Shown one piece after another: positions 3,463 through 14,164 of a DNA stretch of 57,568 bases. Numbering within the stretch: position 1 is the first letter of the stretch; the number at the start of each line of letters is the position of its first letter. Origin of the DNA: Thermoleophilia bacterium. GTDB taxonomy: Bacteria > Actinomycetota > Thermoleophilia > Gaiellales > JAICJC01. The stretch covers positions 1-57,568 of the forward strand of contig JAICJC010000007.1 in the NCBI GenBank assembly GCA_025928655.1, written 5' to 3'. A program made the translations under genes and the position numbers. Below the pieces are notes generated by a model that was given only the letters and a program-made list of their open reading frames with translations, ran no database searches and was not told the origin of the DNA.

Positions 3463-4715
3463 GCCGCCTGCGCGTGGCCGTCGTCGGGAGCGGGGTCGCC
3501 GGCCTCACGGCCGCCCACATCCTGGGCCGGACGCACGAGGTGACGCTGTTCGAACGCGACGAGCGCCTCGGCGGCCACGCCAACACGATCGCCGTGCGGG
3601 CGGCGGACGGCCGCGAGCTGGCGCTCGACACCGGGTTCATCGTCCACAACCGGCGCACGTACCCCACCCTGCTGCGGCTCTTCGCGGAGCTCGGGATCCC
3701 CACGCAGGCGAGCGACATGTCGTTCGGCGTGCGGTGCGAGGGCTGCGGGCTCGAGTATGCCGGCGCCCGCGGCATGCAGGGCGTCGTCCCGCGCCCGGGC
3801 GTGCTCGGGCGGCCGCGGTACCTGCGCATGCTGGCCGAGGTGCGCCGGTTCCACCGCCACGCCCGGGCCGTCCTCGCCGACCCGGCGGCCGACGACCTGA
3901 CGCTCGACGGCTTCCTGCGCCAGGGCGGATACTCGGCCTACTTCGCCGGCCACTTCATGCTGCCGCTCACCGGCGCGGTGTGGTCGTCGTCGCCCGCGAC
4001 CATCCGCGACTTCCCGGCCCGCTACCTGATCCGCTTCTTCGCCAACCACGGCATGCTGACGGTCAAGAACTCGCCCCAGTGGCGGACGGTCACCGGCGGC
4101 AGCCGCGAGTACGTGAGCCGGATCGCCGCCCGCCTCCGCGACCGCGTCCACGCCGGCACGCCGGTCGTGTCCGTCGCCCGCGACGACGACGGCGTCACCC
4201 TGAACGGCGAGCACCGCTTCCACCGGGTCGTGATCGCCGCCCATCCCGACCAGGCGCTCGCCATGCTGGCCGACCCGAGCGAGGCCGAGCGCGCCGTCCT
4301 GGGCGGATTCGGGTACTCGAGCAACCAGACGGTGCTGCACACGGACTCCTCCCTGCTCCCCCGCGCCGCCGGCGCGCGGGCGTCCTGGAACTACCTGCTC
4401 GACGCGTGCTCGACGAGCCAGCCGCTCGTCCACGTCACCTACCACCTGAACCGGCTCCAGGCCCTGCGCGAGCCGGTCGACTACTGCGTGACGCTGAACA
4501 GCACCGCCCGCATCGGGGCGGGGCACGAGCTGCGGCGGATGACCTACGAGCACCCCATCTACACCCACGCCAGCCTGGCGGCGCAGGCGCGCCTGCCGGA
4601 GATCCAGGGCGACCGCAACACGTACTACTGCGGCGCGTACCACGGCTGGGGGTTCCACGAGGACGGCTGCGTCTCGGGCCTGCGGGCCGCGGTCGGGCTG
4701 GGGTGCGCCTGGTGA
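3459..4715 (+). CDS. FAD-dependent amine-oxidase-like oxidoreductase
   Basis: 418 residues starting at GTG 3459, whose last bases overlap the previous stop (GTGA). The N-terminus is an FAD-binding Rossmann motif (VAVVGSGVAGLTAAHIL, then the FERDERLGGHANT segment typical of amine-oxidase-like flavoproteins). The family (COG2907 type) is regularly encoded beside DUF1365 and a cyclopropane-fatty-acid-synthase-like methyltransferase, as here. Related three-gene sets have been tied to modified fatty acids, including furan fatty acids in Rhodobacter; I recall this from the literature and cannot check it here. It probably oxidises or desaturates methylated acyl chains at the membrane surface (inference). 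Confidence 0.87.
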   Translation: MSRLRVAVVGSGVAGLTAAHILGRTHEVTLFERDERLGGHANTIAVRAADGRELALDTGFIVHNRRTYPTLLRLFAELGIPTQASDMSFGVRCEGCGLEYAGARGMQGVVPRPGVLGRPRYLRMLAEVRRFHRHARAVLADPAADDLTLDGFLRQGGYSAYFAGHFMLPLTGAVWSSSPATIRDFPARYLIRFFANHGMLTVKNSPQWRTVTGGSREYVSRIAARLRDRVHAGTPVVSVARDDDGVTLNGEHRFHRVVIAAHPDQALAMLADPSEAERAVLGGFGYSSNQTVLHTDSSLLPRAAGARASWNYLLDACSTSQPLVHVTYHLNRLQALREPVDYCVTLNSTARIGAGHELRRMTYEHPIYTHASLAAQARLPEIQGDRNTYYCGAYHGWGFHEDGCVSGLRAAVGLGCAW

Positions 4716-5455
4716 GGTCGGCGCTCTACGAGGGCCAGGTGGTGCACGATCGCCGGGCCGGCCTCCGCAACCTGTTCCGCTACCGCGTCTACATGTGGCA
4801 CGTCGACCTGGACGAGCTGGACGAGCTCGACCGGCGGCTGTGGGCGTTCGGGAACGACCGCCGGGCGCTCACGACGATCCGGGCCCGCGACCACCTCGGC
4901 GATCCCCGGCGGACGATCCGCGCGAACGTGGAGCGCTACCTGTCCGCCCACGGGATCGACCTCGGCGGCGGGCGGGTATCCCTGCTGACGAACGCGCGCG
5001 TGCTCGGCTACGTCTTCAACCCGCTCTCGATCTTCTACTGCCACCGCCCGGACGGCAGCCTGCGCTGCGTCGTCGCCGAGGTGCACAACACCTACGGCGA
5101 GCGCCACTGCTACCTGCTGGAGCCGGGCGACCGCGGCCGGGCGAGCGCCGGCAAGGAGTTCTACGTCTCGCCCTTCCTGGCAGTGGACGGGAGCTACGAG
5201 ATGACCCTCGCGACGCCCGGCGAGCGGCTCTCGGTGCAGATGGCGCTGCGCCAGGACGGCGAGCGCGTGTTCGCCGCCTCGCTCACCGGCCGCCGGCGGC
5301 CCGTCACGAACGGCACCGTGGCGCGGATGCTGCTGCGCCATCCGCTGATGACGGCCCGGGTGACCTCGCTCATCCACCTGCAGGGCGTCAAGCTCTTCCT
5401 GCGCGGCGTGAGCCGCGTCCCGCGGCCGCCGCACCCGCCCCAGGAGCACGTCTGA
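4712..5455 (+). CDS. DUF1365 family protein
   Basis: 247 residues from GTG 4712 (GTGA overlap with the preceding gene). It begins RSALYEGQVVHDRR and carries the conserved blocks YRVYMWHVDLDEL, LLTNARVLGYVFNPLSIFYC and EVHNTYGERHCYLL that define DUF1365. The biochemical function is unsettled. The family almost always occurs between an FAD amine-oxidase-like gene and a CFA-synthase-like methyltransferase, and this operon repeats that order with overlapping stops and starts. Ends with TGA overlapping the next ATG (TGATG). Confidence 0.88.
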   Translation: MRSALYEGQVVHDRRAGLRNLFRYRVYMWHVDLDELDELDRRLWAFGNDRRALTTIRARDHLGDPRRTIRANVERYLSAHGIDLGGGRVSLLTNARVLGYVFNPLSIFYCHRPDGSLRCVVAEVHNTYGERHCYLLEPGDRGRASAGKEFYVSPFLAVDGSYEMTLATPGERLSVQMALRQDGERVFAASLTGRRRPVTNGTVARMLLRHPLMTARVTSLIHLQGVKLFLRGVSRVPRPPHPPQEHV

Positions 5456-6990: not shown

Positions 6991-7680
6991 TCACGTGGCC
7001 CTGCCGCCCTCGTCCTCGGCGATGCCGAGCCGGTGGGCGATCGCGGCCGCCTCGGTGCGGTTGCGGGCGTGCAGCTTGGCGAGGATGTTCCGGACGTGGT
7101 TCTTCACGGACTGCTCCGTGATCGTGAGCTGCGCGGCGACGTCGCGGTTCGACGCGCCGCCGGCGACGACGGCGAGCACCTCCCGCTCGCGCCGGGTGAG
7201 GCCGTATCCGGCCGCGGGATCGGGCGGATCGCGGCGGGCGATGTCGCGGATGAGCGCGGCGGCGCCCGGCCCGGGCAGCACCGCGCCGCCGTTGGCCGCC
7301 ATGCGGATCACGTCGGAGAGCAGGGCCGGATCGCGCGTGTCCTGCTTCACGACGTAGCCGCTGGCCCCGGCGGCGAGGGCGTCCACGACGTCGGTCGGGT
7401 CGCGCGACACGGTGAAGACCAGCACATACGTGCCGGGATGGTTGTCGCGGACATGGCGGGTGAGCTCGACGCCGCGCATGCGCGGCATCTCCAGGTCGAC
7501 CAGCAGCACGTCGGGATGCAGCCGGCCCACGAGCCGGATGGCCTCCTCGGCGGAGTCCGCCTGGCCGAGCACGGTGACATCCGCGCGCCGGGACAGCACC
7601 GAGACGACGGATTCCCTCCATGCCCACTCGTCGTCGCAGACGATGACGGACACCCGGGACGGCTCCGGCGCGTCAGCCAC
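6991..7680 (-). CDS. NarL/LuxR-family response regulator
   Basis: 229 residues. The receiver domain (about 8-125) has the acidic pair in VCDDE, the phosphoacceptor Asp62 in LLVDLEMP, a conserved FTVS and the lysine in YVVKQ. The C-terminal LuxR-type helix-turn-helix (about 165-225) reads LTRREREVLAVVAGGASNRDVA and continues with SVKNHVRNIL. It is a transcription factor activated by phosphorylation. It overlaps the preceding sensor gene by 8 bp, so it is translationally coupled to it and is the expected partner of the unusual split sensor. Targets are not visible. Confidence 0.93.
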   Translation of the reverse strand: MADAPEPSRVSVIVCDDEWAWRESVVSVLSRRADVTVLGQADSAEEAIRLVGRLHPDVLLVDLEMPRMRGVELTRHVRDNHPGTYVLVFTVSRDPTDVVDALAAGASGYVVKQDTRDPALLSDVIRMAANGGAVLPGPGAAALIRDIARRDPPDPAAGYGLTRREREVLAVVAGGASNRDVAAQLTITEQSVKNHVRNILAKLHARNRTEAAAIAHRLGIAEDEGGRAT

Positions 7681-8914
7681 GCTGCCCCACGGGAAAGGCC
7701 AGGCGCACGGTGACGGGCCGCCCGGGAGCGGCGTCGATGTGGAGCCGCCCGCCCAGGACGGCCGCGTCGCGGCGCAGGCTCTCGAGGCCCAGGTGCGTGG
7801 TGTCCGGCCCGGGGTCGAACCCGGCGCCGCTGTCGCGGATCGTCACCGCGACCTCCCCGCCGTCGACCCTCGCCGAGACCGTGATGGGCGAGCCTCCGTG
7901 CTTGTGCGCGTTCCACACGGCCTCCTCCGCGAACCGCCCGAGCGCCGCGGCGGCCGTCGCGGCCACGGGCAGCTCGCACCCCGCCGCGACCGAGACGTCG
8001 GCCTCGGCCCCGAGCAGCCGCGCCCGGCCGACCGCGGCGGCCAGCGCGGCGGCGATCGTCTGTGCCGCCGCGGGCCCGCCCGGCGCGTAGCCGGAGAGCT
8101 CGTCGAGGCTCGTGCCGGCGTGCCGGACGAGCCGGTCGAGCTGGTCGCATTCCTCCTGCCAGGCCGGATCGAGGGGCCGGCGGCCGCGCAGGTCGCCGAG
8201 ACGGGCCTGGAGGTCGGGGATGACGCCACCGATCCGGCCCGCGACGTCGGCGAGGGCGGCAACGCGGGTCTGCGTGCGGGCCTCGTCTGCCACCGCGGCC
8301 GCCACCTCCTCCGACCGGGCCTGGTAGGCGATCCCGGTCTGCTCCAGCGCCGTGAACAGCCGCCGCACGTACCCGAACAGCCCGATCCCGATGTAGAGGC
8401 CGACCAGCCCGAGCGGCCACTCCGTCGTGTGCACGGGCTCGGTGCCCGCCCGCACGCCGGCGAGCGCGGCGCCGCCGAGCACGAGGCTGACCACGACGGC
8501 GTCCGCCGTCGCCAGCGCGAGCGCGCGCCGGGGGGAGACGAAGACGGTCGCGATGATGACCGGCAGGGCGCAGGCGTAGAGCGCGATCACCCGGGCGCCG
8601 CCTCCGACCACGACCAGTCCGACGCACAGCGCCTGATCGACCCACAGCCAGCCGGGCCGCCGCTCCACGACGCCGTACAGCCGCCGCCCGAACGCACCGG
8701 TGGCGACGGCCCACGCCAGGTAGAGGGCGAACACGGCGACGTCCCAGCCCGCTTCGCGCGTCCCGCCCGACGGCCGCGCCGCGACGACCACCATCGCCGC
8801 CGCCACGCCGGCCCGCACGAGCAGAACCGCGCGCCCGAGCGCCCACCGGGCGGCCCGGAACCGGGCCAGAACCGCGCCGGAGTCGATCAGCGGAGTGGCG
8901 AGCGACGCGTCCAT
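7673..8914 (-). CDS. membrane sensor with histidine-kinase ATPase domain but no phosphoacceptor His
   Basis: 413 residues. Residues about 28-180 form five or six membrane helices; a linker helix follows (183-245). The HATPase_c domain has an N box (EEAVWNAHKHG, about 330-340) and a D/G1 box (DSGAGF, 361-366), ending with a G2-like HLGLESL. Where NarL-partner kinases carry the HisKA_3 histidine, this protein reads ALADVAGRIGGVIPDL with Ala225. The preceding gene encodes a paralogue that keeps the histidine but lacks the ATPase domain. The ATG at 8914 is 4 nt after that gene's stop. The likely role is an ATP-binding subunit that phosphorylates its partner in trans (inference). Confidence 0.88.
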   Translation of the reverse strand: MDASLATPLIDSGAVLARFRAARWALGRAVLLVRAGVAAAMVVVAARPSGGTREAGWDVAVFALYLAWAVATGAFGRRLYGVVERRPGWLWVDQALCVGLVVVGGGARVIALYACALPVIIATVFVSPRRALALATADAVVVSLVLGGAALAGVRAGTEPVHTTEWPLGLVGLYIGIGLFGYVRRLFTALEQTGIAYQARSEEVAAAVADEARTQTRVAALADVAGRIGGVIPDLQARLGDLRGRRPLDPAWQEECDQLDRLVRHAGTSLDELSGYAPGGPAAAQTIAAALAAAVGRARLLGAEADVSVAAGCELPVAATAAAALGRFAEEAVWNAHKHGGSPITVSARVDGGEVAVTIRDSGAGFDPGPDTTHLGLESLRRDAAVLGGRLHIDAAPGRPVTVRLAFPVGQRG

Positions 8915-8918
8915 CGGG

Positions 8919-9815
8919 TCAGGGTACGGAGGGGGTCGGGCCGCGGCCAGTTTCCAAGGTACCGGTCGAGGGGGTACCTCTCAGCCGGCCGATCGCGACG
9001 TCGAGCTCGGCGTCCGCCCGCGCGGCCAGCCCCTCCACGGCGTCCAGGGTGGCGCCCGCGGCCGGATCCTCCTCGCACTCCGCCCGCAGCGCCGCGATCC
9101 GCAGGGCGAGCGCCGGGAAGACCTGGCGCAGGCGGCCGTGGAGGCGGAAGGCGACCTCCTGGCGCTCCGCGGCGACCGTGGCCGCGCGCACGGCCGCGAT
9201 CGCGTCCGCCGCGCGCCCCATGTACGCCGCCGCCGCGTCCGCGAGCTCGTCGAACTGGTGCCGCACGTAGGCGAACAGGCCGGCCACGACGACATAGCCG
9301 ACCACCGGCGCGGTCCACGCGGAGAGGGGAACGCTGCGGGTCGCCGGGTCGGCGCCCGAGAGCCGCCACCCGAGGTGGCTCGCGACGAGCACGGCGCAGC
9401 CGCCGATCCCGAGGAGCAGGGTGCGTCGCGCCGACCAGAACACCGACGCGAACCCGAACGGCGACCAGCCGTACACGTAGAACAGGTTCTCCCACCCGCC
9501 CGCGACCACGAGCAGGGCGCACCAGGCGGCGACATCGACCCACACCAGCCGCCGCCGGGCCGCCACCCGGGCATAGGCGCGGTCGACCGAGCGGAGCGGC
9601 ATGAGCACCCAGGCGAGCGCGACCGTCCACGCCACGGCGATGACGACGGTCAGGCGATCGCCGTGCGACGCCGGCTCGGCCGGGAGCAGCAGCCCGAGGC
9701 CCACCAGGATCGCGATACGGCTGTACACGATGCCGCCGAACAGCGACCGCTCGTACGTGCTCAGCGGGGCGAACCCCGCGGGGTCGACCCGAGCCGTGTC
9801 GGAGGCACCCGCCAT
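8919..9815 (-). CDS. membrane sensor with HisKA_3 phosphoacceptor region, no ATPase domain
   Basis: 298 residues. The membrane region (about 30-182) is followed by a linker beginning FAYVRHQFDELAD, which resembles GYVRRLFTALEQ in the downstream paralogue. Residues 217-233, ERQEVAFRLHGRLRQVF, are a good HisKA_3 motif with His226. The protein ends about 70 residues later, so the HATPase_c domain is absent. It is first in the three-gene operon; a TAAGAT box lies 12 nt upstream of its ATG. It is probably the phosphoacceptor half of a two-protein kinase (inference). The tail is Pro/Thr-rich. No frameshift into an ATPase domain is visible in the 4-nt gap to the next gene. Confidence 0.82.
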   Translation of the reverse strand: MAGASDTARVDPAGFAPLSTYERSLFGGIVYSRIAILVGLGLLLPAEPASHGDRLTVVIAVAWTVALAWVLMPLRSVDRAYARVAARRRLVWVDVAAWCALLVVAGGWENLFYVYGWSPFGFASVFWSARRTLLLGIGGCAVLVASHLGWRLSGADPATRSVPLSAWTAPVVGYVVVAGLFAYVRHQFDELADAAAAYMGRAADAIAAVRAATVAAERQEVAFRLHGRLRQVFPALALRIAALRAECEEDPAAGATLDAVEGLAARADAELDVAIGRLRGTPSTGTLETGRGPTPSVP

Positions 9816-9891: not shown

Positions 9892-10653
9892 ATGCGGTTG
9901 CAGGACGGCACGCGCGTATGGGTCTGCGGCGCCTCGAGCGGGATCGGCGCCGCGCTCGCGCGCGAGCTGGCCGGGCGCGGCTGCCGGGTCGCGGCGAGCG
10001 CGCGCCGCGCCGACCGGCTCGACGAGCTGGCCGGCAGCGCCCGCGGCGAGGTCGTGCCGGTGCCCGTCGACGTCACCGACCGCGAGGCGATGATGGCCGC
10101 CGGGGAGGCGGTGCGCGAGCGGTTCGGGGCGATCGACCTGGCGATCCTGAACGCGGCCTACTGGGGCGGGTTCTCGGTCGAGGCCTGGGACACGGAGGTC
10201 ATCCGCCGCCACTTCGACACGAACGTGATCGGGATGGCGCACGGCATCGAGGCCGTGCTGGCCGACATGCGCCGCCGCCGCAGCGGCGCGATCGCCGGCA
10301 TGGCCAGCCTGGCCGGCTACCGCGGGCTGCCGCGCTCCGAGGCCTACGGCGCGACGAAGGCGGCCGAGATCAACATGCTGGAGTCGCTGCGCATCGACCT
10401 GCGCCCGTACGGCATCGCCGTGCACACGATCTGTCCCGGGTTCGTGCACACCGAGCTGACGGCGAGGAACACCTTCCGGATGCCGTTCATCATGGAGGCG
10501 GACGACGCCGCCCGCCGGATCGCGCGCGGCCTCGAGCGCGGCCGGGCCGAGATCGCCTTCCCGCTGCCGATGCTGCTCCTGATGAAGACGGCGAAGATGG
10601 TGCCCGTCAGGCTGTGGGCCGAGGCGTTCCGGCTGGTGCCGCCGCGCTCGTAG
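9892..10653 (+). CDS. short-chain dehydrogenase/reductase
   Basis: 253 residues from ATG 9892. NAD(P)-binding glycine motif GASSGIG near the N-terminus, the NAA structural motif (ILNAAYWG), catalytic Ser in MASLAGYRG and the active-site YGATK. It is a classical SDR of normal length with a short hydrophobic C-terminal region (LPMLLLMKTAKMVP) that may touch the membrane. I chose ATG 9892 because a TACGGT box at 9879-9884 ends 7 nt upstream; ATG 9886 and GTG 9883 are in frame but too close to that box. Its 3' end overlaps the convergent cyclase gene by 47 bp. The substrate is unknown. Confidence 0.88.
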   Translation: MRLQDGTRVWVCGASSGIGAALARELAGRGCRVAASARRADRLDELAGSARGEVVPVPVDVTDREAMMAAGEAVRERFGAIDLAILNAAYWGGFSVEAWDTEVIRRHFDTNVIGMAHGIEAVLADMRRRRSGAIAGMASLAGYRGLPRSEAYGATKAAEINMLESLRIDLRPYGIAVHTICPGFVHTELTARNTFRMPFIMEADDAARRIARGLERGRAEIAFPLPMLLLMKTAKMVPVRLWAEAFRLVPPRS

Positions 10654-13600
10654 CCGCCGCCGGAGCCGCGAGGGCGTCGGCGCGGGCGATCCACGGAGCC
10701 GCGCCCAGCCGCACGAACGTCTCGCGCGCCTCGTGGACCAGGCCGGCGGCGTCGCCGCCGTGCGCCAGCCGCGCCTCCGCGTGCTCGAGCCGGGCGACGG
10801 CGAGCCAGAACACGAGCCCGAGGCTGTCGAAGAGGCGCTCGGCTGCGAGGTAGGCCTCGTCGGCCCCCGCCGCCCCGTCGGTGAGGCGGGCGCGAAGGCG
10901 ATGGGCATGGGCCTCCATCATCGGCGAGCGCAGACCCGGCGGACGGTCTTCGACGATCTGCAGGATCTCGTCGAGGCGGTCCATCCTGCCCAGCGCGTAG
11001 GCCGCCTCGGCCGCCCAGCGCAGGCCCTGCTTCACGGCCTGCGCCGTGTCGCCGAGCAGCCCCCGCGCGGCGACGGACTGCTCGCCGAGCTCGAGCGCGT
11101 CGGCGTAGCGACCCTCCGCATACGCGACCGCGGCCGCGGCTCCCACATACCCGAGGCGCTCCTGCACGTCGAACGACGTCGGCAGGCGCGAGAAGATCTC
11201 GAGCAGCCCGCGGGCGTCGTCCACCTGACCCCGGTTCAGGTGGATCTCGAGGATCGACGTCAGCGGACTGATCAGCGTATGGCCGCTCGGCAGCTGCTCG
11301 CGCGGGACCTCGGCGAACGCGGCCATGGCCTCGTCCCAGCGCCCCAGCTGGAACAGCGGGTAGGTGCTCTCGCTTTGGGCGAACCACTCGTTGGGGCGGT
11401 CTCCGGACTTCCGCGCGAGCTCCAGCATCCGCGCGAGATGGCCGAGCGCCTCCTCGTAGCGGTCGACGGCGAACGCCTGATCGGAGAGGTTGCCGAGGCC
11501 GACGCCCGCTCGCTCCACGAAGCCGTGCTCGAGCGCCATCTCGACGGCCGCGGAGAGCAGCATGCTCGACTCCTGGCGGCGTCCGCGGGTGGCAGCGAGC
11601 ACACCCTTCGCCCCCCACCCGAACACGAGGATCTCGGGCAGTTCGAGCGCCTCGCCCATGTCGAGCGCACGCTCGATCAGCATGGACGCCCGCTCGATCT
11701 GCCCGACGAAGAGCAGCGCGTTTCCGAGACGCGCCGTGAGGAAGGCCAGATCGGCGTCGGGCGCGTCCTCGCCGATCACGCCGAACGCCGCCTCCATCCG
11801 CTGGATGGCGAGCTCGTGATCGCCGCCCCGCTCGAGCGCGTAGGCAAGCCGGCTCGTGGCACGCGCGGCCGCATGCGTGTCTCCCGCGGCCTCGTGCAGC
11901 CGGATCGCCTGCTCGAAGATCTCGGTCGCATCCGCGAGCCGGCCGCTTCGCGTCGCCATCTGGCCGGCGCGGTCGAACAGGTCCGCACGGGCCGCGTCGT
12001 CGTCGGTCAGCCCGGCGGCCTGGGCGTAGTAGCGCTGCGCCTCTCCCGGGGCGCCCAGCGACTCGGCCCGCTCCCCCGCGCGGACGAACAGCGCCTGGGC
12101 GCGCGCGCGGACGCGGTCGGAGTCATCGTCGTCGGGAGCGGCCTCATAGGCGTCGAGGTAGTGGGCGCCGAGCACCTCGACGAGTTCGTCGTCGTCCGCG
12201 GCCGCCGCCTCCAGATGGGCGGCCGCGGCCAGGTGGCGCAGGCGCCGCTCCCGCCGGGAGAGCGTCTCGTACGCGACCCGGCGCATGAGATCCTGGAGGA
12301 AGCCGTACTGGCCGTGCTCCGGCGAGCGCGGGTCGGCCTGGATCGAGAGCACCTCCTTGCGCACGAGCCCGGCCAGGATCACGTCATAGGCGGCGGGGTC
12401 CGCGTCGGCCAGTGCGGCCAGCGCATGCTTCGTGAACGTCTTCCCGAGCACGGCGCCGTTCTGGACGACCAGCCGCTCATCCGGTGTGAGGCCGTCGAGC
12501 CGGGCGGCGATGAGCGCATGCAGCGTCTCGGGCACCTCCAGCGTCTCCACCGGCCCGGTCGCCCGGTAGACGCTGCCCTCCTGCACCACGTGGCCGCGGT
12601 CGAGCAGCATGCGTACCGTCTCGACGGCATACAGCGGGACGCCTTCCGACCGGGCCAGGATCTGGGCCGCGAGCGCGTCGGGCAGCCCGGCGACGAGCCC
12701 GTCCAGGAGCTCGCGCATGGCGGCGTCGCCGAGCGGCTCGAGGTAGAGCGACGTGAAGTTGCGCTTCCCGGCGCCCCACGTGGGCCGCTTCTCGACCAGC
12801 TCGGGGCGCGCAGCGGTGATCACGTACAGCGGCGAGTTGCGCGACCACTCGAGCAGGTGCTCCACGAAGTCGAGCAGCGACGCGTCGGCCCACTGCATGT
12901 CCTCGAACGCGAGCACGGTGGGGTAGACGTCTGCGAGGCGCTCGAAGAAGAGCCGCCAGGCCGCGAAGAGGTCCTCCCGCTCGAACCGGCCCTCGCTCCC
13001 GACCCCGAGCAGGTGGGCCACCCGCGGCTCGACGAACGCGCGCTCCTCCGCATCGCCGATGTGATTGTCCAGGACATCGGCCAGCTTCGCCATCACCGCC
13101 TCGTCCGGCTCGTCCTCGCCGATGCGGCAGCGCATGCGCACCATGTCGGCCAGCGCCCAGTAGGTCACTCCCTCGCCGTAGGACGGGCACCGGCCGCGGT
13201 GCCAGTAGACCACCTGGGCCAGGCCGTCGAAGTACTTGTAGAACTCCCAGACGAGCCGCGACTTGCCGATGCCCGCGATCCCGGTCACCGAGACGAGATG
13301 GGCCCGGCGCTCGTCGGCGCAGGCGTGGAAGAGATCCTTGATCTGGCGCAGCTCGCGGTCGCGGCCGACGAACGGCGCCTCGAGCCCCTCCGACTTGAGC
13401 GAGCCGCGCGCGCCCGAGACGATCCGCACGGCCCGCCACAGCCGGTGCAGGCCGATCTTGCCCTTGAGCTCGTGCTCGCCGGCGTCCTCGTAGACGACGG
13501 CCGGCTCGGTCGCGCGCCGCGTTGCGTCGCCGACGAGCACCTTCCCGGGCTCCGCCAGCGACTGCACCCGGGCGGCCGTGTTGACGACGTCGCCCGCCAC

Positions 13601-14164
13601 CATGCCCTCGCCCACGGCGCCGACGGTCACGGTCGCCTCACCCGTGAGCACCCCCGCCCGCACCCGCAGGTCGGGGATGCCGATCTCGTCCCCGAGCGCG
13701 GTCACGGCCGCGACCAGGTCGAGCGCCGCCCGGACGGCCCGCTCGGGATCGTCCTCGGTAGCGTTGTGGGCGCCCCAGACGGCCATGACGGCGTCGCCGA
13801 TGAACTTCTCGACGACGCCGCCGTAGAGCTCGATCAGCCGCCGGCAGACGTCGAAGTAGCGCGACAGCAGGGCGCGGACGTGCTCGGAGTCGCGCGCCTC
13901 CGAGAGCGCCGTGAACCCGACAACGTCGGCGAAGAGCACGGTGACCAGGCGCCGCTCCGTCGCCGGCTCGCCGGGGACGACGGCCGCGGCGCCCTCCGCC
14001 GCGCCATCCCGCGCGACGACCGGGGTCCCGCACTCGCCGCAGAACCGGTCGCCCGGCAGGACGGCTGCCCCACACGAGCCGCAGACCGCGGCCAGCGACG
14101 CGCCGCACCCGCGGCAGAATCGCTTGCTGGAAGGGTTTTCCGTCCCGCACGCGGCGCAGATCAC
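10607..14164 (-). CDS. zinc-ribbon / class III cyclase / AAA ATPase / TPR signalling protein
   Basis: 1185 residues. In order: a double zinc ribbon (CAACG and CRGCG, CGSCG and CGECG, residues 3-48); a class III nucleotide cyclase domain (about 72-230) with both metal-binding Asp residues (LFADVVGFTALS and FIGDAVMAVWG); an AAA/NACHT-like ATPase with P-loop GIAGIGKS; then a long C-terminal region of helical TPR-like repeats. Proteins of this type are frequent in actinobacteria; cyclase activity and ligand are usually unproven. The start is GTG 14164, 6 nt after a TACACT box (14171-14176), suggesting a leaderless mRNA. The C-terminal end overlaps the convergent SDR. Confidence 0.9.
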   Translation of the reverse strand: MICAACGTENPSSKRFCRGCGASLAAVCGSCGAAVLPGDRFCGECGTPVVARDGAAEGAAAVVPGEPATERRLVTVLFADVVGFTALSEARDSEHVRALLSRYFDVCRRLIELYGGVVEKFIGDAVMAVWGAHNATEDDPERAVRAALDLVAAVTALGDEIGIPDLRVRAGVLTGEATVTVGAVGEGMVAGDVVNTAARVQSLAEPGKVLVGDATRRATEPAVVYEDAGEHELKGKIGLHRLWRAVRIVSGARGSLKSEGLEAPFVGRDRELRQIKDLFHACADERRAHLVSVTGIAGIGKSRLVWEFYKYFDGLAQVVYWHRGRCPSYGEGVTYWALADMVRMRCRIGEDEPDEAVMAKLADVLDNHIGDAEERAFVEPRVAHLLGVGSEGRFEREDLFAAWRLFFERLADVYPTVLAFEDMQWADASLLDFVEHLLEWSRNSPLYVITAARPELVEKRPTWGAGKRNFTSLYLEPLGDAAMRELLDGLVAGLPDALAAQILARSEGVPLYAVETVRMLLDRGHVVQEGSVYRATGPVETLEVPETLHALIAARLDGLTPDERLVVQNGAVLGKTFTKHALAALADADPAAYDVILAGLVRKEVLSIQADPRSPEHGQYGFLQDLMRRVAYETLSRRERRLRHLAAAAHLEAAAADDDELVEVLGAHYLDAYEAAPDDDDSDRVRARAQALFVRAGERAESLGAPGEAQRYYAQAAGLTDDDAARADLFDRAGQMATRSGRLADATEIFEQAIRLHEAAGDTHAAARATSRLAYALERGGDHELAIQRMEAAFGVIGEDAPDADLAFLTARLGNALLFVGQIERASMLIERALDMGEALELPEILVFGWGAKGVLAATRGRRQESSMLLSAAVEMALEHGFVERAGVGLGNLSDQAFAVDRYEEALGHLARMLELARKSGDRPNEWFAQSESTYPLFQLGRWDEAMAAFAEVPREQLPSGHTLISPLTSILEIHLNRGQVDDARGLLEIFSRLPTSFDVQERLGYVGAAAAVAYAEGRYADALELGEQSVAARGLLGDTAQAVKQGLRWAAEAAYALGRMDRLDEILQIVEDRPPGLRSPMMEAHAHRLRARLTDGAAGADEAYLAAERLFDSLGLVFWLAVARLEHAEARLAHGGDAAGLVHEARETFVRLGAAPWIARADALAAPAAATSAAAPAGTPRPTA

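Follow-up and report, generated by a model that had tools for sequence, protein, structure and literature searches.

A putative two-subunit membrane histidine kinase from a Thermoleophilia bacterium, with acceptor histidine and ATPase on paralogous proteins

In a 57,568-nucleotide stretch of a Thermoleophilia contig (hereafter the window), two adjacent genes encode related membrane proteins which share out the parts of a histidine kinase: protein A carries the phosphoacceptor histidine and protein B the ATPase. We propose that A and B, born of gene duplication and complementary loss, join as the subunits of a single membrane histidine kinase. In such a kinase, the equivalent membrane modules would pair and the DHp hairpins would pack as a four-helix bundle like that of a kinase homodimer. 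The ATPase of B would bind ATP and, acting strictly in trans, phosphorylate His226 of A, the only acceptor that the complex has, and A would then hand the phosphate to Asp62 of a co-encoded NarL-type response regulator, which would control transcription. That A and B are partners is very likely. That phosphate passes through His226 is somewhat probable, and we hold the explanation as a whole, a hetero-oligomeric A/B kinase that phosphorylates A-His226 and feeds the regulator, to be about equally so.

The genes for A, B and the regulator form a tight minus-strand operon. Protein A, the His half (298 aa; 8919..9815, minus strand), consists of a membrane module of 5-6 helices, a linker helix and a complete DHp hairpin with His226 (codon 9138-9140), and has no ATPase. 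After a 4-nt spacer on the same strand (8915..8918), across which A and B are probably translationally coupled, comes protein B, the ATPase half (413 aa; 7673..8914, minus strand), with an A-like membrane module, a DHp and an HATPase_c domain. The end of B overlaps by 8 nt, a detail that the first-pass annotation does not mention, the start of the gene for a NarL/MadR-type response regulator (6991..7680, minus strand; phospho-acceptor Asp62, codon 7495-7497). GC3 is 0.94-0.95 in A and B, and coding-type GC periodicity backs all three frames. On the 5' side of A lies a divergent short-chain dehydrogenase gene and downstream of the operon a cyclopropane-fatty-acid-synthase-like gene, both named by reading their translations; the neighbouring genes in the window gave nothing firm as a hint to signal or targets. 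A finding outside this system is a 1185-aa protein at 10607-14164 (minus strand), whose translation reads as a zinc-ribbon start, a class III cyclase-like domain, an AAA-type ATPase and a repeat region.

In a search of their own genome, A and B are mutual best matches in the membrane and DHp stretch that they have in common, at 32% identity across 243 aa (E=1e-15); judged by this sequence similarity, which is beyond chance, they are true paralogues. Their DHp helices align without gaps, with His226 of A in ERQEVAFRLHGRLRQVF and Ala225 of B (codon 8240-8242) in ALADVAGRIGGVIPDL, and the register can be followed from A (AERQEVAFRLHGRLRQVF) through ordinary kinases (EERARIAREMHD) to B (TRVAALADVAGRIGG). 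The HisKA_3-like DHp of A (aa 217-279; 8979..9167, minus strand) is matched by PF07730 in the correct place and below the Pfam cut-off (15.2 vs 24 bits, E=0.032); its register agrees with canonical kinases despite this score. His226 is followed by Gly227, where Asp or Glu is usual, a point absent from the first-pass annotation of this DNA. The DHp-like region of B (about aa 216-283; 8066..8269, minus strand) lacks a histidine at the phosphoacceptor position, and its HATPase_c domain (aa 324-409; 7688..7945, minus strand) scores above the Pfam cut-off (29.8 vs 26.4 bits, E=8.5e-7), with the N box EEAVWNAHKHGG, the D box IRDSGAGF and the G2 box THLGLESLRRDAAVLGG. The P1 (HPt-type), P4 ATPase and P5 coupling domains of the CheA family were looked for and none was found; A and B have a HisKA_3-like DHp and HATPase_c instead. 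In split-kinase terms, A is thus a His-bearing protein without ATPase and B an ATPase-bearing protein with alanine at the acceptor position. The first-pass annotation had read the two genes in the same way, and its placing of both, of their key residues and of the N and D boxes of B holds.

It had also claimed that A stops before any ATPase domain, and this too is borne out, as no HATPase match was found in A. AlphaFold2, working from a shallow alignment (mean pLDDT 64), models A as membrane helices followed by a helix at 164-246, a second at 251-278 and a disordered end, with His226 in mid-helix and a pLDDT of about 76-90 in the DHp part (residues 190 to 278). The presence of this two-helix hairpin with His226 implies that the whole DHp is there and that only the ATPase is missing. 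As modelled, A is a case of clean domain loss rather than of ragged truncation. That A was once longer and was cut short by a frameshift or truncation is ruled out by the interval between A and B, which contains no ATPase-coding remnant, and by the same plan in other genomes.

Indeed A-like and B-like proteins occur in three further genomes of the window's class, with the allocation of histidine and ATPase kept in each. In two of them the halves are fused. The first, G005 (JANYCN010000037.1, an Actinomycetes MAG of the same order as the window), has one 664-aa ORF that runs through a membrane module, a DHp, an ATPase, a second membrane module and a DHp with histidine, where it ends; the first DHp has methionine at the acceptor position (RAAAERAIMVKV) and the second histidine (RAEARRSIHSQ). 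The second, G154 (CAUJCX010000022.1, an Actinomycetota MAG of the same class but a different family), repeats this plan in a 678-aa ORF, with no histidine in the first DHp (INVDVARGLRV), the N box EALNNARKHGPG and a histidine in the second DHp (AQAQLHHTLRQ). In both chains the ATPase half precedes the His half, the reverse of the gene order in the window. Their N-halves match at E=5e-32 and their C-halves at E=1e-22, which makes the halves orthologous and the fusion an old, maintained architecture. The third genome, G237, belongs to the family of G154 and has separate genes for A' (275 aa, LGELHSREAG) and B' (442 aa), which overlap by 8 nt; its kinship to the window pair is weaker. A LuxR/NarL-type regulator gene is linked in all four lineages: within the operon in the window, on both sides of the fused kinase in G005, and divergently oriented beside the kinase genes in G154 and G237. 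The two G005 regulators (L018:1363-2124, plus strand, and 4181-5071, minus strand) are 56% identical to each other.

The AlphaFold2 model of the G154 chain reproduces this order, with a six-helix membrane region, a DHp, a Bergerat ATPase (309-394), a second membrane region, a long helix with His621 and a second DHp helix at the end; built from four alignment rows, with a mean pLDDT of 66 and a pTM of 0.55, it is too weak to judge DHp packing. In Foldseek, the ATPase part of the chain resembles kinases, among them VanS, VraS and DesK, at E values from 0.002 to 0.1. The whole fused chain has nothing below E=0.001; its weak top match is adenylyl cyclase 9 (E=1.8e-3).

The natural fusions are strong evidence that the two halves work together. 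They also bear on the idea that A is a stand-alone phosphotransfer protein charged by another kinase of the cell, with B as a decoy or inhibitory subunit, for which the genome would offer candidates in at least ten other HATPase-type loci. Since A shares an operon with B and the chains of G005 and G154 tie the corresponding halves together, we regard this as highly unlikely. Another reading takes A for a truncated kinase in decay, or for a product of faulty assembly, and B for a degenerate kinase in its own right, their complementarity being coincidental; the pair comes from a single MAG contig, the HisKA_3 match of A is sub-threshold and no relatives were found in genomes of the window's genus or family. 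Here the clean domain edge just where the DHp hairpin of A stops, the coding-type periodicity, the tight gene spacing and the lack of an ATPase-coding remnant all speak to the contrary. The conserved homologues, two of them intact single chains in reverse order, largely refute this reading, to which we give very little credence. The duplication and reciprocal loss put forward in the first-pass annotation are well supported by the paralogy of A and B and by the same complementary pattern in the three other genomes, so that the check it had proposed, a search for homologous gene pairs, came out in its favour. The two findings that it had named as refuting, homologues of A that carry an ATPase of their own and homologues of B that retain the histidine, did not turn up within the family.

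No close relatives of A were found in 84,980 GTDB genomes, none were found on plasmids, and an alignment of the two fused His-halves as query matched only the G005 and G154 MAGs. As the profile searches (n=300-400) scored only 6-8 candidates per genome, and one of them missed G237, the family is probably undercounted. Low-scoring matches (G012, G046, G047, G116, G149, G175, G218, G227, G260, G266, G267, G411, G624 and others) proved, in the cases looked at, to be complete kinases of the ordinary kind or else unrelated ORFs whose likeness lay in the membrane module or the coiled linker. The matches in family f29 were rejected as kinase halves, being LuxR regulators anchored in the membrane by a module that resembles this one. 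They include adjacent pairs of ~260-aa proteins in which that module is fused directly to a LuxR-type HTH, with no kinase (L032:302-1853, L039:306-1878, L084:1240-2821), and these are paired membrane-bound transcription regulators. G046 also encodes a 195-aa membrane protein (L021:2172-2759, plus strand) with a HisKA-like helix at its end (LLRHRIANPLMTIGGAARTL) and no ATPase, possibly another stand-alone His protein.

Kinship among the four lineages was assessed with leave-one-lineage-out profiles of the His- and ATPase-halves, ranked among non-members. The halves of the window, G005 and G154 came out as the best non-members, at 63/48, 72/71 and 64/45 bits respectively, the runners-up scoring 36, 29 and 42. 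The B' protein of G237 was recovered at 44.5 vs 34 bits, and A' was not recovered by the profile built without it; G237 is thus perhaps a distant member of the family, perhaps a case that arose in parallel. Of two trees, one places A and B of the window as weak sisters (80/75) and the other leaves them unresolved; the N-halves and the C-halves of G005 and G154 form two separate groups. With trees so poorly resolved, the sequences would fit one old duplication or several independent ones.

Across the family the acceptor histidine is invariant in all four His-halves, one of ten invariant columns among proteins only about 20-30% identical, and is absent from all four ATPase-halves, where the position holds alanine in the window and G154 and methionine in G005; B' of G237 has no histidine there, in an alignment that is gapped at this point. 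The N box, E-A-x-x-N-x-x-x-H-G, is likewise invariant in the ATPase-halves. This conservation favours an active kinase over the main alternative, an A/B receptor complex in which phosphotransfer is dead or secondary and the regulator is controlled by binding or conformation, or by phosphatase activity only. That alternative draws on the residue after the histidine (G, S, H and S in the four His-halves, never Asp or Glu) and on the D box, which is intact in the window and altered in the other three ATPase-halves (VTNQA, VANPS and AFVSH). In canonical HisKA_3 kinases the Asp or Glu at this H+1 position is thought to serve as general base. LytS-, HWE- and HPt-type proteins nevertheless function without it, and AgrC-type kinases work although they lack a classical D box; the losses seen here thus lower confidence without being decisive, and catalysis is not assured. 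The use of a similar membrane module on paired LuxR-output proteins without a kinase would also suit such a receptor complex.

As to the regulators, that of the window, with 80 bits to PF00072 (Response_reg), 66 bits to PF00196 (GerE) and NarL/MadR as its best family, keeps Asp16/Asp17, Asp62, the threonine and the lysine, in line with the first-pass claim of an intact Asp62 in the same operon; the acidic pair, the phospho-Asp and the lysine are kept in the G005 and G154 regulators as well. The window, the two G005 and the G154 regulators also share an unusual start of alpha1, in which a polar and then an aromatic residue come after the acidic pair (DDEWAW, EDSWLY, EDSWMY and EDQFEW) at a site that reads DDHP in most ordinary NarL regulators, together with a K-[QRK]-D motif and a beta5-alpha5 loop two residues longer. 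The alpha1 motif and the longer loop are both absent in eight of nine other regulators compared; in the ninth, that of G237, the aromatic motif is missing, the loop is longer still and the conserved lysine is lost, the last a further point for dead phosphotransfer. In known kinase-regulator complexes the alpha1 and beta5-alpha5 surfaces touch the DHp. The shared features fall on these very surfaces and look like co-adaptation. Given the invariant histidine and N box, the intact D box of the window and the residues kept by the window, G005 and G154 regulators, we rate a complex with dead or secondary phosphotransfer as rather unlikely. The first-pass annotation had spoken of an obligate two-protein kinase: its complementary halves stand and the partnership is strongly supported, whereas obligate catalysis is something that we infer, with the H+1 acid and the D box counting against it.

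A wider generalisation is tentative and, on present evidence, somewhat doubtful: A, B and their relatives may represent a small class, within the Actinomycetota, of obligately hetero-dimeric membrane kinases, built as two subunits or as a single chain, that phosphorylate one way in trans, dispense with the H+1 acid and possibly arose more than once. The family is known from four lineages, and this, like the sub-threshold HisKA_3 in A, tells against the A/B kinase itself. So does a 712-aa tandem in G168 (L079:1036-3174, minus strand), which the family profile matches only marginally (E=1.8e-5) and which is arranged the opposite way. Its first half is a complete NarL-type kinase (RRLHDDLGN and ATPase), its second half a membrane module with a DHp-like region, in which tyrosine replaces the histidine, and no ATPase; a NarL regulator follows. 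With histidine and ATPase in the same half, it shows that other allocations exist nearby and that there are tandem kinases in which one ATPase has been lost, and suggests a route by duplication, loss of one ATPase and then loss of either histidine.

If the proposed A/B kinase is real, it is a natural asymmetric histidine kinase with one ATPase and one acceptor histidine. It would let several points that homodimeric kinases blur be tested cleanly, namely cis versus trans transfer, the need for both halves to sense, the half in control of phosphatase activity and the need for the acid after the histidine, and the fused forms would be ready-made single-chain pseudo-heterodimers for structural work. 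Split-kinase theory predicts switch-like responses when the free His protein is a phosphatase (Amin et al., PMC3591291).

Among known systems, sensor kinases of the NarL/DesK type (HPK7, HisKA_3), such as DesK and LiaS/VraS, have in common with A and B the membrane module, the DHp register, the ATPase and a NarL-type regulator, but their ordinary members unite LHD/MHD and the ATPase in a single chain and work as homodimers. The mammalian membrane adenylyl cyclases (C1/C2) resemble the G154 chain in their two six-helix membrane repeats and complementary active-site losses; their catalytic domains are unrelated and the likeness is an analogy only. Among actinobacteria, HK1 and HK2 of M. tuberculosis are, as far as is known, a single kinase in two halves and not a pair of full-length membrane paralogues, with no fused complementary tandem described, and are reportedly split, following Shrivastava and co-workers, into an ATPase protein and a His protein. 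With TcrA (Rv0600c-Rv0601c-Rv0602c) they form a two-protein kinase with its regulator (PMC8965865, PMC9274095), and it is in organisation that we liken them to A and B. The first-pass view that actinobacteria offer no described example must be narrowed to that extent, though HK1/HK2 is not known to be a paralogous membrane pair. In Rhodobacter sphaeroides, CheA3 and CheA4 carry the histidine and the ATPase on separate proteins, neither of which autophosphorylates alone (PMC3591291). They match A and B in combining a His protein without ATPase, an ATPase protein without acceptor domain and a downstream regulator, but they are soluble proteins of a chemotaxis cluster with HPt-like P1 and P4 domains, whereas A and B have a NarL/DesK-type DHp and ATPase on paralogous membrane proteins, with the histidine in the dimerisation helix. 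Hik36 and Hik43 of Synechocystis, termed a split histidine kinase, interact with each other and with a regulator in two-hybrid tests (PMC7656254); they differ in being a CheA homologue divided between two distant genes. More such systems may be hidden among the 1556 of 42417 HisKA proteins in SMART that have no ATPase domain (Amin et al., PMC3591291). In the literature searched, mostly non-subscription journals, we found no description of NarL-type membrane paralogues with reciprocal loss and a natural single chain. Split kinases as such are already known; what is new here is their occurrence as full-length, NarL-type membrane paralogues with reciprocal losses, joined in relatives into a natural single chain.
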